This document shows positions 58,323-64,000 of a DNA stretch of 64,000 nt, piece by piece. Positions within the stretch are counted from its first letter, which is position 1. Each line of letters starts with the position of its first letter. The DNA comes from Citrobacter sp. MGH106 (GTDB taxonomy: Bacteria; Pseudomonadota; Gammaproteobacteria; Enterobacterales; Enterobacteriaceae), in assembly GCF_001037495.1 (NCBI RefSeq), contig NZ_KQ089823.1:630295-694294 (forward strand), given 5' to 3'. Under the pieces are notes generated by a model, which was given only the letters and a program-made list of their open reading frames with translations, searched no databases and had not been told where the DNA came from. Position numbers and translations under genes: made by a program.

Positions 58323-59015
58323 TTACTGACCATAATAAGCATTATCACCGTGCTTTCTTAAAAAGTGTTTATCCAGTAACGTTTTTTGCATGGCAGTCAA
58401 ATGGGGTTGCAGTTGCTGTGTGAACAAATTCATATAGGCAATTTCTTCAAGCACGACAGCGTTATGAACCGCGTTGGCAGGATCAGTTCCCCAGGTAAAA
58501 GGACCATGACTGTTAACCAACACTGCCGGGATATGGTCGGGAGATATTCCACGTTGTTTAAATGTTTCAATGATTACCTTGCCGGTATCATGTTCATAAT
58601 GCCCATTAATCTCGTCATCAAGCATCGTTCGTGTACAGGGAATCGCACCGTAGAAATAATCCGCATGCGTTGTTCCCAGCGGCATTAAGTCTTTTCCTGC
58701 TTGTGACCAAATGGTGGCATGACGGGAATGGGTATGAACGATCCCACCGATATTTGGAAAGGCGTGATACAGAGCCAGGTGTGTGTCGGTATCAGATGAA
58801 GGTTTTTTATTCCCCTCAACAACCTTCCCGCTTTGTATGTCGACAACAACCATATCATCCAGGCTCATGCTGTCATATTCGACACCAGAAGGTTTAATGA
58901 CCATTATGCCTTTTTCACGATCAATGCCGCTGACGTTGCCCCATGTAAACGTCACCAGATGATGGGCTGGCAAGGATAAATTAGCGTTAAATACTTTTTC
59001 CTTCAGTGTATCCAT
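58323..59015 (-). CDS. Ribulose-5-phosphate 4-epimerase-like class II aldolase-family enzyme
   Basis: A 230-residue cytoplasmic enzyme close in length and sequence to AraD, SgbE and UlaF. Zinc ligands Asp75, His94, His96 and His170 correspond to AraD Asp76, His95, His97 and His171. The catalytic acid/base pair corresponds to Asp119 and Tyr228. TWGNVSG and KPSG bind phosphate. The expected reaction is L-ribulose 5-phosphate to D-xylulose 5-phosphate. The known E. coli paralogues lie in ara, sgb and ula operons; this one is beside a DeoR regulator and a sugar ABC importer, divergent across 430 bases. No kinase or isomerase is in the window. The native substrate is inferred from family only. Confidence 0.92.
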
Positions 59016-59172
59016 TTTTGACTCCAGAAATATTATTTAGCTTTATAAAAATGAGTTCTTTAATTTTGCTGGGAAATCATGTTGCTATTTAAATTACGCC
59101 GAATACATAAGATGTAAAATACAAGCAGACGATACTTATGTATAAAGCGGCTCAAACGGTCAAATTCGGAAG

Positions 59173-59220
59173 TATTCGGGCGTATTTTTCTATTTTATTG
59201 ATGCCCGTATATGCCCGTTT
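59173..59220. promoter_or_regulatory. Candidate operator cluster with repeated GCCCG half-sites
   Basis: ATGCCCGTAT (59201-59210) and ATGCCCGTTT (59211-59220) are tandem direct repeats 10 bases apart, one helical turn. An inverted half-site TTCGGGCG lies at 59175-59182. This pattern suits a multimeric repressor such as the DeoR-family protein encoded next door; binding is inferred. Confidence 0.5.
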
Positions 59221-59263
59221 AGTCGTTATGCTGTGATAGTTAAATAAGAAAAGAGATTAATTC

Positions 59264-59279
59264 TGTGATGAAAATCTCA
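59264..59279. promoter_or_regulatory. CRP-like site
   Basis: TGTGA-TGAAAA-TCTCA matches nine of ten consensus positions, in the divergent control region of the sugar cluster. Catabolite control would be expected for such genes. Confidence 0.4.
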
Positions 59280-59445
59280 CTATCGTGTTATAGAATTCAT
59301 TTATTACATCAATAAACTTAGCTTAGATCACACTGTTAATTGTGTATTATTTCTGTAAAGCAATTCTTGATACCAATCACTTTAAGTTAAGGCAAAAAGA
59401 TTAATTATGTAGACACAGTGAATTTTGTCTTGGTGGGCTGAAATT

Positions 59446-60258
59446 ATGTTGCAGGCAGAACGTTATAAAATAATTTGCGCACACGTTCAACAAATGGGCG
59501 CTGTGCGTGTAACGGAACTGTCGAAATTATGCCAGGTATCCCAGGAAACTATTCGAAGAGATTTGACAAAACTTGAACAAAAAAAGAAACTCACCCGCAG
59601 CTTTGGCGGCGCCGTATCTTTGGATGCTCCTGATTTAATATCTACGGCTATAACAGAAGATAAAACCTGGCAAACAAATAGCGTGGATCGCGCAGAGTCA
59701 TTTCGCAAGCGTACTGAAGCACATCCCGATGTTAAAGCCAAAATAACCAAGGCGGCGTTGCAGTTTATTCGCTCTGGCGATTGTATTTTGATGGATAACA
59801 GTAGCACCTGTTGGTTTCTTGCCCGGCAGATTCCGGATATTGATATTACGGTTGTGACGAATTCGTTACGGATTATCCAGGCATTAGCGTGCCGGGATAA
59901 AGTTCGCATTATTGGTATCGGCGGAGAGTATTCAGAGCGTCATGATGACTTTCATGGACCAGTAGCAGAGAGTGCGATCAGGAATTTCCAGATTAATAGC
60001 TTTTTCTTTTCATGTCAGGGGCTGAATTTGGAGAATGGAGTTAGAGATGGCAGCGAAATAAATGCCAGATTAAAACAGGTGATGCTTCAGGTCTCTGCTC
60101 AAAAAATATTAATGGTAGACTCCAGTAAGTTTGAGCAGTATGCATTCAGTAAAATTTGTATGTTAGATGAAATTGACGTCATGGTTACTAATAATTGTAT
60201 TGACGAACGTTATCGTAGCCTTTACCCGCAATTAAATGTAGTAGAAGTCGATAAGTAA
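59446..60258 (+). CDS. DeoR-family transcriptional regulator of the sugar cluster
   Basis: A 270-residue repressor-type protein. The N-terminal winged helix has VRVTELSKLCQVSQETIRRD followed by the family signature FGGAVSL. The C-terminal sugar-phosphate sensor (DeoRC, about 85-255) shows ILMDNSSTCWFLA, VVTNSLRIIQALA, GGEYSERHDDFHGP and LMVDSSKFEQYAF. These sense phosphorylated sugars. A TTG at 59425 could add seven residues, but the ATG begins MLQAERYKII, as family members do. It likely controls the divergent epimerase gene and the ABC genes downstream through the repeats upstream. The gene is AT-rich relative to its neighbours in the arg region. Confidence 0.9.
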   Translation: MLQAERYKIICAHVQQMGAVRVTELSKLCQVSQETIRRDLTKLEQKKKLTRSFGGAVSLDAPDLISTAITEDKTWQTNSVDRAESFRKRTEAHPDVKAKITKAALQFIRSGDCILMDNSSTCWFLARQIPDIDITVVTNSLRIIQALACRDKVRIIGIGGEYSERHDDFHGPVAESAIRNFQINSFFFSCQGLNLENGVRDGSEINARLKQVMLQVSAQKILMVDSSKFEQYAFSKICMLDEIDVMVTNNCIDERYRSLYPQLNVVEVDK

Positions 60259-60276
60259 TAGATGTTAGTCGTTAAC

Positions 60277-60306
60277 TAAATAATTAAGGCTGTGCCCGAT
60301 TATTTA
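60277..60306. promoter_or_regulatory. Inverted repeat between regulator and binding-protein gene
   Basis: TAAATAAT and ATTATTTA flank a 14-base centre that includes TGCCCGA-like sequence (TGTGCCCGAT). There is no T run after it, so an operator fits better than a terminator. Confidence 0.35.
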
Positions 60307-60403
60307 GCCAATACCAGAGGAAAGTTGAAATAAATAAAAAGTCAGGCTGATATTTTTATCGGGATTTCCTGACATATGAAGAATATTTCTTAAGGAATTT
60401 ACG

Positions 60404-61408
60404 ATGAAAAAATTAATCTTACCCTGTCTGATTACTGCAGCTTTGTCATCATCTGTTGTATGGGCAGAACAACCTGCAGCAGCGCAAAAAGCGAATAAAC
60501 CTTTTACGATGGGCGTCGTGGTAAAAGTTGGTGGTATTCCATGGTTTAACGTGATGGAACAAGGCATTAAGGAAGAAGGTAAAGCATTAGGTGTAGATGC
60601 CTGGCAAGTAGGACCGACAACTGCGGATCCCGCCGAGCAAGTGCGAGCTATTGAAGATTTAATCGCCAAGAAAGTTGATGTGATTGGCGTTGTTCCAAAT
60701 GATGCGAAAGTTCTGGAACCGGTGTTAAAGCGCGCCCAGGAGGCTGGTATTAAAGTCATTACTCATGAGTCACCGAACCAGGCCAATGCTGACTGGGACT
60801 TTGAGTTGCTTAACACCCAAACGATGGGCGCCAATCACATGAAAGACATGGCGAAATGCATGGGTGAAGAAGGGAAGTACGCAATGTTTGTAGGCAGTCT
60901 GACGGTTCCATTGGTGAATGACTGGGCTGATGCCGCCATTGCTTATCAAAAAGAACATTATCCTAAAATGACGCTCGTTGAGGATCGCTTTGGTGTAGCG
61001 GAGTCTGTAGATGACTCTATGCGTACAGCCAATGATCTGATGTCTAAATACAAAGATCTGAAAGGCATCATGTCTTTTGGTTCGCAGGGACCAATCGGTG
61101 CAGGCCGTGCTATTGATAAACGTAAGAAAAATGATGCAATTTGCGTATTTGGTACGTTCACCCCAGGCCAGGGCATTAAGTTGCTGGAAAAAGGTGCTAT
61201 CGATGGCGGCTACATTTCTAACCCGATGACTGCAGGTAAAGTGTTTGTTCAGGTCGCCACGGCGATGATGAACGGTGAGCCAATTAAGGATGGTGTAAAA
61301 ATCGGTGATATGGGAGAAATTAAAGTTCAGAACAACACCATTCTCAGCGATAACCCTGAAAAACTCGATCTGGAAAATACGCAACGTTTAGTGAAGTTAG
61401 GTTTGTAA
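60404..61408 (+). CDS. Periplasmic sugar-binding protein of an ABC importer
   Basis: A 334-residue protein with a signal peptide (about 1-21, cleaved after VVWA). The mature part is a cluster B type periplasmic binding protein (Peripla_BP_4) of the kind that includes LsrB and RhaS: KPFTMGVVVKVGGIPWFNVM, WQVGPTTADPAEQVRAIEDL, IGVVPNDAKVLEPVLKRA and VITHESP. The GPTTADPAEQ region resembles LsrB more than RbsB. It captures the substrate and hands it to the permease. It is the first of the importer genes, 145 bases after the regulator with AAGGA before the ATG. The ligand could be a pentose, a deoxyhexose or an autoinducer-like furanose; the sequence does not decide. Confidence 0.92.
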   Translation: MKKLILPCLITAALSSSVVWAEQPAAAQKANKPFTMGVVVKVGGIPWFNVMEQGIKEEGKALGVDAWQVGPTTADPAEQVRAIEDLIAKKVDVIGVVPNDAKVLEPVLKRAQEAGIKVITHESPNQANADWDFELLNTQTMGANHMKDMAKCMGEEGKYAMFVGSLTVPLVNDWADAAIAYQKEHYPKMTLVEDRFGVAESVDDSMRTANDLMSKYKDLKGIMSFGSQGPIGAGRAIDKRKKNDAICVFGTFTPGQGIKLLEKGAIDGGYISNPMTAGKVFVQVATAMMNGEPIKDGVKIGDMGEIKVQNNTILSDNPEKLDLENTQRLVKLGL

Positions 61409-61469
61409 TTTTAGTTTGCATCACCGGGCCTAAACTGGCCCGGAAATCCTTTGGTCGTTTAGGAACAGT

Positions 61470-62987
61470 ATGATGCCTCATATTACAGAGAAAAATACAG
61501 GTGAACCGTTAGTGACGTTAAAATCGTTAACTAAAAGCTTCGGCGGTCATCGGGCATTAAAAAATATTGATCTCACTCTAAATAAAGGTGAAGTCCACTG
61601 TCTTGCTGGTGCAAATGGTTGTGGTAAAAGTACATTAATAAAAACGCTGAGTGGTGTGTATATCCCGGATACGGGTAGCGAAATTATTATTGATAATAGA
61701 TCCTGGTCCAGACTTTCACCAGATAGAGCTCGCGAGTTAGGTATCCAGGTTATTTATCAGGATCTCTCATTATTTCCTAATTTGACGGTGGCAGAAAACA
61801 TAGCCTTTGAATATAACCTTAAGGGGTATTTTAGGTGGCACAAAAAAGCACATCTGAAAGCGGTATCAGAGAAGATTATACAGGAATTAAATTTTAACCT
61901 CGATGTTGACGCATTGGTTCAGCATTTGCCTATTGCGCAGCGCCAGCAGGTTGCCATTTGTCGTGCTCTGGTCGCAGAAGCCCGACTGGTGATAATGGAC
62001 GAACCAACGGCTTCACTTACTCGTACCGAAGTTAACCAACTACTACGTACGGTAAATTATCTCCGTCATAAAAATATCACTGTAGTTTTTGTTAGCCACC
62101 GCTTGGATGAGGTCAAAGAGATTTCCGACCGTATCACGGTTATTCGCGATGGTGAAATTATAGGTACCTGGGCAGCTGAACAGTTGTCTCCGGGACGCAT
62201 CACAGAACTGATGACCGGCAGGACCATTGTTCACCAGAAAAAATTACCGAATAGTGTTGAAGGCAAAGTTGTCCTTGAGCTGAAAAAGTTGAGCAGGAAA
62301 GGACAATTTGAAGATATTTCCCTGAAACTTCATCAGGGTGAGGTTCTGGGATTGTGCGGTTTGTTAGGTTCGGGACGAACAGAGCTGGCGTTGAGCCTAT
62401 TTGGTATTACTCATCCAGATAGCGGAGATATCTATCTGGAGGGTAAAAAAGTTGTGATTAAAGATAATACCCAGGCAGCGAAATTAGGTATTGCCTATGT
62501 CTCTGAAGATCGTCTTACATTGGGAGCGGTTTTATCCCAGTCAGTCAGTGACAATATGGTACTTTCGATTCTTAACCGGTTAAAAACACCATGGCAATTT
62601 ATTGATGAAAAACGCCAGGACGCCTTGGTTAAAGAATGGATTCAGGATCTGGATATTAAAGTCACCAATCCTGATAACCCACTTTCAACACTTTCTGGTG
62701 GTAATCAACAAAAAGTGGTGCTGGCGAAATGGATTTTAACGCGTCCAAAAGTACTTATTCTTGATGCCCCTACAGTTGGTGTTGATATAGGAGCGAAAGA
62801 CAGTATTTATCAGCTTATTCACCGGCTTTCCGGTGTAGGTATTTCAGTCTTGCTGATTACTGATGAAGCGCCAGAAGCGTATTACAACTGCGATCGTATT
62901 TTTCATATGCGGCGTGGGAAGATTATTAACGAACTGCAGCCTTCTCTCTATACCGAACAACAGCTAGCGGAGGTGATTAATGGCTAG
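61470..62987 (+). CDS. Sugar ABC importer ATPase with two nucleotide-binding domains
   Basis: A 505-residue cytoplasmic double ATPase of the RbsA/LsrA/MglA type. Domain 1 (about 12-245): Walker A GANGCGKS (47-54), signature replaced by LPIAQRQQ, Walker B LVIMDEPTASL and switch His in VFVSHRLDE. Domain 2 (about 260-500): degenerate Walker A GLLGSGRT without the Lys, canonical signature LSGGNQQK, and Walker B LILDAPTVG, where Ala433 replaces the catalytic Glu found in RbsA (DEPT). There is no switch His (LITDEAPE). Thus one composite site looks canonical and the other fully degenerate. ATG codons at 61470 and 61473 are both possible. It overlaps the permease gene by eight bases. Confidence 0.93.
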   Translation: MMPHITEKNTGEPLVTLKSLTKSFGGHRALKNIDLTLNKGEVHCLAGANGCGKSTLIKTLSGVYIPDTGSEIIIDNRSWSRLSPDRARELGIQVIYQDLSLFPNLTVAENIAFEYNLKGYFRWHKKAHLKAVSEKIIQELNFNLDVDALVQHLPIAQRQQVAICRALVAEARLVIMDEPTASLTRTEVNQLLRTVNYLRHKNITVVFVSHRLDEVKEISDRITVIRDGEIIGTWAAEQLSPGRITELMTGRTIVHQKKLPNSVEGKVVLELKKLSRKGQFEDISLKLHQGEVLGLCGLLGSGRTELALSLFGITHPDSGDIYLEGKKVVIKDNTQAAKLGIAYVSEDRLTLGAVLSQSVSDNMVLSILNRLKTPWQFIDEKRQDALVKEWIQDLDIKVTNPDNPLSTLSGGNQQKVVLAKWILTRPKVLILDAPTVGVDIGAKDSIYQLIHRLSGVGISVLLITDEAPEAYYNCDRIFHMRRGKIINELQPSLYTEQQLAEVING

Positions 62988-63972
62988 TTTATTGCACCTG
63001 CGGTTTCCACGTTCAGTCGAAGGATGGCTGGGATGGGTTATCGCCCTGATGCTGGTACTGTTTTCTCTTATGAATGATCAATTTCTGTCAATTCAAAACC
63101 TGCTGGATCTGACAGAAAGCTATGCCGTTACAGGGATCTTTGCCCTCGGGCTATTTGTTGTGCTGGTGACAGGAGGAATTGATATTTCATTCGCTGCTGT
63201 AGCCTCAGTTGTTCAGTATGTGGTGGCGTCATTACTGCTTAACGAAACAATAGCCAATCCACTGCTATGTCTCGGGGTTGCTATTTCTCTGGGTGTTTTG
63301 TTTGGCCTGATCAATGCGATCCTCATTTATTACCTCAATGTAGTTTCCATCATTATCACCATCAGTATGCAGTCGTTGTTATTCGGCATGTTGATGTGGC
63401 TGACTAATGGTCACAGCATCTATGACTTACCTGACTGGTGGATAACGCAACGTTCCCTTTTTAGCTTCGAATTTGAAGGGGAGGTTTATCAGGTTGGATT
63501 GCCTCTGGTAGTGATGCTGGGCATGGCCTGTTTTACATGGATTGTAATGACGAAAACCCATATTGGACGTCAGCTTTATGCTGTGGGCGGCAGTACAGAG
63601 TCGGCGCGGCGTATTGGTATCCGGGTTTCACTGATTTATTTGTTCGCCTACGGCTATCTTGGCGCGGCGGCGGCGATCGGCGGAATGCTGCAGGCTTACC
63701 GCATGAGCGAGGTTGTTCCCAATGCGTTGGTTGGCGGTGAATTGGATGTTCTGGCCGCTGCTGTACTGGGAGGTGCTAGCTTATCCGGAGGTCGTGGTTC
63801 GGTGATCGGTACGCTTATGGGGGTCTTCCTCATCGGCATACTCAAAAATGGTCTCAACTTGATTGGCGTGTCCAGCTACTTCGTCAATATCGTCATCGGT
63901 GTGGTGATTGTTTCGGCTATCTGCGTCACCCATTACAAAAAGCGTAAAGAAACGGACGTTGGATTTGTCTGA
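62980..63972 (+). CDS. Sugar ABC importer permease
   Basis: A 330-residue inner-membrane protein with nine or ten hydrophobic segments, of the BPD_transp_2 family (RbsC, LsrC, XylH). VLVTGGIDISFAAVASVVQYV and the late AAAVLGGASLSGGRGSVIGTLMG are the family blocks; the second includes the loop that contacts the ATPase. It starts within the ATPase gene (eight-base overlap), so it is translationally coupled. A Shine-Dalgarno and a new start follow at 63986, suggesting a second permease as in lsr operons. Confidence 0.93.
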   Translation: MASLLHLRFPRSVEGWLGWVIALMLVLFSLMNDQFLSIQNLLDLTESYAVTGIFALGLFVVLVTGGIDISFAAVASVVQYVVASLLLNETIANPLLCLGVAISLGVLFGLINAILIYYLNVVSIIITISMQSLLFGMLMWLTNGHSIYDLPDWWITQRSLFSFEFEGEVYQVGLPLVVMLGMACFTWIVMTKTHIGRQLYAVGGSTESARRIGIRVSLIYLFAYGYLGAAAAIGGMLQAYRMSEVVPNALVGGELDVLAAAVLGGASLSGGRGSVIGTLMGVFLIGILKNGLNLIGVSSYFVNIVIGVVIVSAICVTHYKKRKETDVGFV

Positions 63973-63985
63973 CAGGGGGCGTGAA

Positions 63986-64000
63986 ATGAAAAAAAAGGCA
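63986..64000 (+). CDS. Start of a further gene, probably a second permease (cut by window edge)
   Basis: ATG followed by AAA AAA AAG GCA (MKKKA), preceded by AGGGGG at 63974-63979 with six-base spacing, 13 bases after the permease stop. Only five codons are visible. A second permease is the likeliest content by analogy with LsrC/LsrD pairs. Confidence 0.5.

Follow-up and report, generated by a model that had tools for sequence, protein, structure and literature searches.

Near the end of a 64,000-nucleotide (nt) stretch of the genome of Citrobacter sp. MGH106 (here called the window; G000:C2:630295-694294, in an assembly of two contigs and 4.95 Mb), a sugar operon begins in the interval between argH and oxyR. 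Reading the sequence beyond the window edge confirms that the cluster is real and that it has eight genes, complete just past position 64,000 (later positions are given in window-equivalent numbering). A gene for an L-ribulose-5-phosphate 4-epimerase of the AraD/SgbE/UlaF type, predicted to be the final enzyme of the pathway (58323..59015, − strand), diverges from that of a DeoR/GlpR-family regulator (59446..60258, + strand). The regulator gene is followed by those for a periplasmic ketose-binding protein, predicted to bind L-xylulose (60404..61408, +); a tandem-domain sugar ATPase of the ATP-binding cassette (ABC) type, with two ABC_tran stretches and a start at the ATG at 61470 or 61473 (61470..62987, +); ABC permease 1, which matches Pfam BPD_transp_2 (62980..63972, +); and ABC permease 2 (63986..65032, +), of which only 63986..64000 lies inside the window. 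Past the edge, the order continues with an UlaE/SgbU-type L-ribulose-5-phosphate 3-epimerase (65032-65913) and an FGGY kinase (65924-67405). For the ATPase, sugar-importer profiles rank best among NCBIfam models, none of them over its cut-off. A preliminary description, made from the window alone, had reported the first five of these genes, all of which are open reading frames at these positions, and had proposed a self-contained importer and regulator with a path ending at D-xylulose 5-phosphate. The gene content bears this out, and the second permease and kinase that it had thought might lie past 64,000, followed by oxyR, are present. We propose that the operon probably serves the uptake and use of the ketopentose L-xylulose.

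Both epimerases score over curated cut-offs. The 4-epimerase reaches 442 bits against NCBIfam NF009002 (cut-off 386) and 417 bits against TIGR00760 (cut-off 389), is 73% identical to SgbE and 67% identical to AraD of Escherichia coli K-12, and keeps all of the residues that we take to be the metal-binding and catalytic residues of AraD. The 3-epimerase reaches 452 bits against TIGR00542 (cut-off 272), is 70% identical to SgbU and 54% identical to UlaE, and keeps the four presumed metal ligands of UlaE-type enzymes. SgbU and SgbE, the nearest of the K-12 proteins compared, are both partners of LyxK in the yia operon. A second SgbU-type match in the window genome (60% identical) was taken to be UlaE.

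Over 489 columns, the kinase aligns at 44% identity with LyxK, the L-xylulose kinase of E. coli. By comparison, it shares 22–24% identity over most of its length with LsrK, XylB, FucK and a pentulose kinase that is its paralogue in the same genome, 27% with RhaB and 21% with GlpK over about 200–220 columns, and only short pieces with AraB. XylB is its best NCBIfam profile, at a score far under the cut-off; kinship with XylB, and with it D-xylulose as substrate, was rejected, LyxK being much closer. In a tree of 30 rows, LyxK groups with the operon kinases and their closest relatives in a single clade (97/98), and the outgroup branches are very long. By sequence, the operon kinase is a member of the LyxK group, as a sister group rather than an orthologue. 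Other LyxK homologues in the window genome do not exceed 26% identity over most of their length, with partial matches of up to 32%. The preliminary description had also suggested that an isomerase might lie beyond the edge. No aldose isomerase lies in the block or before oxyR; a 3-epimerase stands in its place, which points to L-xylulose 5-phosphate as the product of the kinase. Only L-xylulose requires both epimerases, as L-ribulose bypasses the 3-epimerase, and D-ribulose and D-xylulose bypass both. Because a kinase, a 3-epimerase and a 4-epimerase are jointly needed only from L-xylulose, pathway knowledge marks this sugar as the likely entry point. From this logic and the kinship with LyxK, we infer that the kinase substrate is L-xylulose.

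The binding protein (Pfam Peripla_BP_4) points in the same direction. The preliminary description had proposed comparing it with solved structures; an AlphaFold2 model (mean predicted local distance difference test score 90) has 3d02 and AauA (9i1m) as its nearest solved structures, and the protein is 45% identical to each and 48% identical to an Rbl-type paralogue in the window genome. The same description had compared it with binding proteins of the LsrB/RhaS type. The fold is shared (Foldseek template-modelling scores of 0.76–0.79, with 17–24% identity in those alignments) and identity to K-12 LsrB is 27%. Both curated NCBIfam cut-offs are missed (RhaS, 131 of 342 bits; LsrB, 106 of 384 bits), so kinship with LsrB and RhaS was dropped as a guide to the ligand; the nearest group is the Aau/Rbl group for D-ribulose. 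AauA was crystallized with D-ribulose, which is sandwiched by W43 and H167; H167 contacts the C2 and C4 hydroxyls, E118 those at C2 and C3, K37 that at C3, and E196 and S223 that at C5 (PMC12307932). These residues (K37, W43, E118, H167, E196 and S223) align to K41, W47, E122, V171, E200 and S227 here. Five of the six D-ribulose contacts are kept, and H167 is replaced by V171.

We read the pocket columns over the best 80 of 310 relatives, which were grouped by identity rank and operon content; 19 of these 80 loci (L029-L047; binding protein 85–99% identical) carry the operon and are referred to as orthologous. K41, W47, E122 and S227 are kept in all 80 loci, and E200 in 73, with aspartate in the other 7. 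Position 171 is valine in 19 of 19 orthologues and histidine in all 61 other relatives, and position 272 is serine in 19 of 19 orthologues and tryptophan (51) or tyrosine (10) in the others. A copy of the operon in E. coli also has valine at 171 and serine at 272. In a smaller set, 18 further positions split 12 orthologues from 21 others; 171 and 272 stand out because the other group is constant or nearly so there. D-ribulose (3R,4R) and L-xylulose (3R,4S) are epimers that differ at C4 alone, so that pocket and enzymes agree. From the pocket and the kinase together we infer that L-xylulose is also the transported ligand.

In the proposed pathway, the binding protein would capture L-xylulose in the periplasm, and the ATPase and two permeases would import it. 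The FGGY kinase would then convert it to L-xylulose 5-phosphate, the SgbU/UlaE-type enzyme would epimerize this at C3 to L-ribulose 5-phosphate, and the divergent SgbE/AraD-type enzyme would epimerize the latter at C4 to D-xylulose 5-phosphate, which would enter the pentose phosphate pathway. The regulator exceeds the Pfam cut-offs for DeoRC (167 bits) and HTH_DeoR (59 bits), is 33% identical to the 211 residues of FucR compared and, as a member of the DeoR/GlpR family, probably senses a sugar phosphate. The divergent control region between the 4-epimerase and regulator genes (59016..59445) is 430 bp long here and 423–655 bp across the 21 loci compared. It holds a candidate DeoR operator cluster (59165..59220), with TTCGG direct repeats at 59165 and 59175 and inverted CCGTAT and CCGTTT at 59205 and 59215. 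The motif TTCGGKCA occurs 18 times across the 21 orthologous regions, 14 of which contain it, compared with 0.44 expected from first-order Markov copies, an expectation that flatters a motif chosen from the same regions in related species. A candidate CRP site, TGTGATGAAAATCTCA (59264..59279, +), has 9 of the 10 bases that we take to make up the CRP half-sites; scored in this way, the best CRP-like site reaches 9 in 11 of the 21 regions, 8 in 6 and 7 in 4, at varying distances. Acting at the TTCGG repeats, the DeoR protein would probably keep both arms repressed as long as no phosphorylated pathway intermediate is present, and CRP may activate the operon.

The operon is strongly conserved. All eight genes, at about full length and in one order, are present in 17 of the 19 orthologous loci; in the other two, the contig ends inside the 4-epimerase gene (L034) or after the binding-protein gene (L044). 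No ninth gene was found inside the block in these loci. Compared with Atlantibacter and E. coli, the proportion of differing synonymous sites is 0.59–0.82, which is heavily or fully saturated, and nonsynonymous divergence (dN) is 0.02–0.23. Against Atlantibacter, dN is 0.02–0.10, and its ratio to synonymous divergence (dN/dS) is 0.01–0.06 for the seven operon genes with a computable dS. Saturation of dS affects the 4-epimerase gene in that comparison, five of the eight genes against E. coli and seven of the eight against Pantoea; wherever it is computable, dN/dS is 0.01–0.07. Low dN at saturated synonymous sites, together with the shared eight-gene order, therefore amounts to conservation far beyond chance. 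We also searched K-12 RhaA, XylA, FucI and AraA, along with genes found only in the yia operon, against the 359 open frames of the 21 loci; in 19 of the 21 loci, none of the four isomerases has a match within the flanking sequence retrieved, which extended up to 10 kb.

Carriers belong to Citrobacter, Atlantibacter, Pantoea, Erwinia, Yersinia, Serratia and Providencia, and the binding protein of Citrobacter sp. Cu233 is 99% identical. The block occupies the argH–oxyR site in the E. coli copy examined, in Atlantibacter and in two Citrobacter genomes, those of the window and of Citrobacter sp. Cu233. The flanks differ elsewhere, which marks the block itself as the unit. Here the block sits between argH and the oxyS end and leaves the OxyS RNA gene (67469-67578, −; L006:10764-10873; Rfam RF00035) and its spacing to an intact oxyR (from 67674) undisturbed. 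G+C content is 52.6% in the window before the cluster and 45.3% over the whole operon. In the genus, 2 of 17 genomes carry the operon. The end of argH lies within about 1.5 kb of oxyS–oxyR in 13 of 16 genus loci, the remaining three being the two operon carriers and one locus without a match; the seventeenth genome has no full oxyR match and lies outside this count. Spacing between argH and oxyR is 250–355 bp in the six genus loci parsed (reversed loci left out). In a family sample that includes the window genome, the binding protein is found at 86% identity or more in 9 of 392 genomes and the kinase at 62% or more in 4 of 198.

The preliminary description had contrasted the locus with K-12, in which the argH–oxyR interval holds oxyS alone. 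The contrast holds for K-12 and does not extend to the species: 142 of 5426 complete E. coli genomes (2.6%) carry the operon. Of the 142, 135 are at least 99% identical to one copy, which fits a restricted spread. The operon proteins resemble those of Atlantibacter more than those of E. coli, whereas the reverse is true of OxyR and ArgH at the flanks, a conflict of kinship that suggests horizontal movement of the operon. Between the kinase gene and oxyR, the E. coli copy examined has genes for a ManD dehydratase (over its cut-off) and a major facilitator superfamily transporter (L009:19368-21932); we rejected them as parts of the system, because neither lies between the kinase gene and oxyR here. 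In another E. coli copy (H66), an IS5-type element is annotated under the match.

Several observations weigh against L-xylulose. The kinase reaches the cut-off of no NCBIfam model, specificity in the FGGY family is hard to read from sequence, and the kinase gene is the fastest-diverging of the operon (69% identity to E. coli). TTCGGKCA has no exact copy in the window's own control region, only looser ones. A FucI 86% identical to that of K-12 lies near two Yersinia loci (L032 and L035), in a fucose-type cluster; it stands beside fucose-kinase-like and DeoR-like genes and in no other locus, and we rejected it as a part of the system and took it for a member of a neighbouring fucose cluster. Finally, loss of both the histidine and the tryptophan, the latter at a putative pocket residue (272), could also mean a larger ligand. 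Such a ligand might be a larger or modified version of L-xylulose, such as a xyluloside or pentitol, admitted to a pocket opened by H171V and W272S. Two bulky residues of all other relatives are indeed small in 19 of 19 orthologues, and a related kinase cassette works with a dehydrogenase. Inside the block of the orthologous loci, to which this search applies, neither a glycosidase nor a dehydrogenase gene was found, and we consider this explanation improbable.

Import of L-lyxose, which RhaA (L-rhamnose isomerase) would turn into L-xylulose in trans for the same three enzymes, is also unlikely. The window genome has a RhaA that is 95% identical to that of K-12, and the K-12 record names RhaT as a rhamnose/lyxose symporter; yet, of 17 carrier genomes of unstated completeness that were searched (covering 17 of the 19 loci), only 9 yielded a RhaA, and two of the eight without one, Providencia rettgeri RB151 and PROV023, are complete by title. 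In addition, the block contains no isomerase, and among solved binding proteins of known ligand the closest one binds a ketopentose (PMC12307932). Transporter parts homologous to those of Rbl and Aau, and the five kept contacts, could instead indicate an importer of D-ribulose or L-ribulose to which the epimerases are incidental. However, an Rbl-type locus is already present in the same genome, and against the pentulose-kinase subfamily model TIGR01315 (cut-off 409) the operon kinase scores 85 bits and the Rbl-type kinase 701 bits. The key histidine is lost throughout the orthologues; all 18 loci that extend far enough keep the 3-epimerase, and all 19 keep the 4-epimerase, which is truncated in one of them; a ribulose importer is thus very unlikely. 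The patchy distribution of the operon in the genus and in E. coli, and its lower G+C content, would suit a decayed or passenger cluster without present function, but every gene is intact and dN/dS is low where computable, which makes this highly improbable. Uptake and use of L-xylulose is the explanation that we favour.

In the open-access literature, with subscription papers outside the search, we found no paper that names the operon or gives L-xylulose as the substrate of an ABC importer of this kind. One phrase match for argH–oxyR (PMC11281485) was set aside because it concerns the oxyR promoter of Xenorhabdus. A Salmonella model paper treats yiaMNO as the L-xylulose transporter (PMC6138749), unlike the K-12 record, in which yiaMNO is a 2,3-diketo-L-gulonate symporter. 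The preliminary description, partly supported overall, had called the system undescribed; within the literature searched, this stands for its name and substrate, but the transporter group was published in 2025 (PMC12307932), in a paper whose main text does not contain the words xylulose, argH or oxyR. In our estimate, the chances are about even that this is the first dedicated system for ABC uptake and catabolism of L-xylulose, and that it arose within the ketose importers by replacement of the histidine that reads C4, with C4 stereochemistry switched in transporter and enzymes together. If so, a nutrient would be identified for the carriers among complete E. coli genomes (2.6%) and for some members of Citrobacter, Atlantibacter, Yersinia, Serratia, Providencia, Pantoea and Erwinia, and generic annotations would be replaced. 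Mammalian glucuronate metabolism yields L-xylulose, as does the oxidation of pentitols. Another rare ketopentose, D-ribulose, raises the fitness of gut bacteria (PMC12307932). The operon would also offer a structure–function test, in which one pocket residue that is constant in the other relatives has changed exactly in the clade with the enzymes for the C4 epimer.

The closest characterized systems are those for D-ribulose uptake, the Rbl locus of Citrobacter rodentium and the Aau transporter of enterohaemorrhagic E. coli (PMC12307932). They belong to the same importer group, and their genes for a binding protein, a tandem ATPase and two permeases are arranged as they are here. The operon differs from both in the change of the key histidine to valine and of an otherwise invariant tryptophan or tyrosine to serine. 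It further differs from Rbl in its LyxK-like kinase in place of a pentulose kinase, in two epimerases in place of a KpsF-like isomerase (the block holds no KpsF-like gene), in its DeoR regulator and in its genomic site. Beside suhB, the window genome has an Rbl-type locus (L007:885-7673; G000:C1 about 862,900-869,700) with genes for a binding protein (48%), an ATPase, two permeases, a pentulose kinase over its cut-off and a KpsF-like protein; the same arrangement has been published for the use of D-ribulose by C. rodentium (PMC12307932).

A sister importer occurs in fifteen loci (60–65% identity in the binding protein; L048-L060, L063 and L071), mostly in relatives of Pantoea and Erwinia, and keeps the pocket histidine. 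One scanned locus, L051, has a D-allulose-6-phosphate 3-epimerase and an allose kinase over their cut-offs after the permeases, as well as a PfkB-type kinase that narrowly misses the ribokinase cut-off; the group is a probable D-allulose uptake system. Another cassette (L168-L170) combines a polyol-type zinc dehydrogenase, a different importer with one permease and a LacI-type regulator with a kinase 53–54% identical to the operon kinase and SgbU- and SgbE-type epimerases. The L168 dehydrogenase is nearest to threonine and sorbitol dehydrogenases, with no curated cut-off reached, and profile scans of the L168 binding protein and the L169 regulator likewise reached none. This cassette possibly encodes a pentitol pathway (xylitol or L-arabinitol) through L-xylulose; the shared kinds of kinase and epimerase would be expected if a pentitol is oxidized to L-xylulose there.

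In the yia operon of K-12, the same three kinds of enzyme lead from L-xylulose to D-xylulose 5-phosphate (LyxK, SgbU and SgbE; 44%, 70% and 73% identity). Only the yia operon includes a 2,3-diketo-L-gulonate reductase and symporter, a 3-keto-L-gulonate-6-phosphate decarboxylase and the regulator PlaR; YiaK, YiaMNO, SgbH and PlaR have no match among the 359 open frames of the 21 loci. Clusters of yia type with relatives of LyxK, SgbH and SgbU/SgbE in L173, L174 and L175 have an ABC importer and no YiaMNO match, and L174 has, by eye, an SMP-30-like protein. The araBAD and ula systems likewise end with an AraD/UlaF-type 4-epimerase, and ula shares the UlaE-type 3-epimerase, whereas the operon has no arabinose isomerase, ascorbate phosphotransferase system or decarboxylase, and its kinase is not AraB-like. 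Measured against these systems, the operon combines known parts in a new way around a specifically altered pocket, as an intact, mobile-looking sugar operon that is most likely for L-xylulose.

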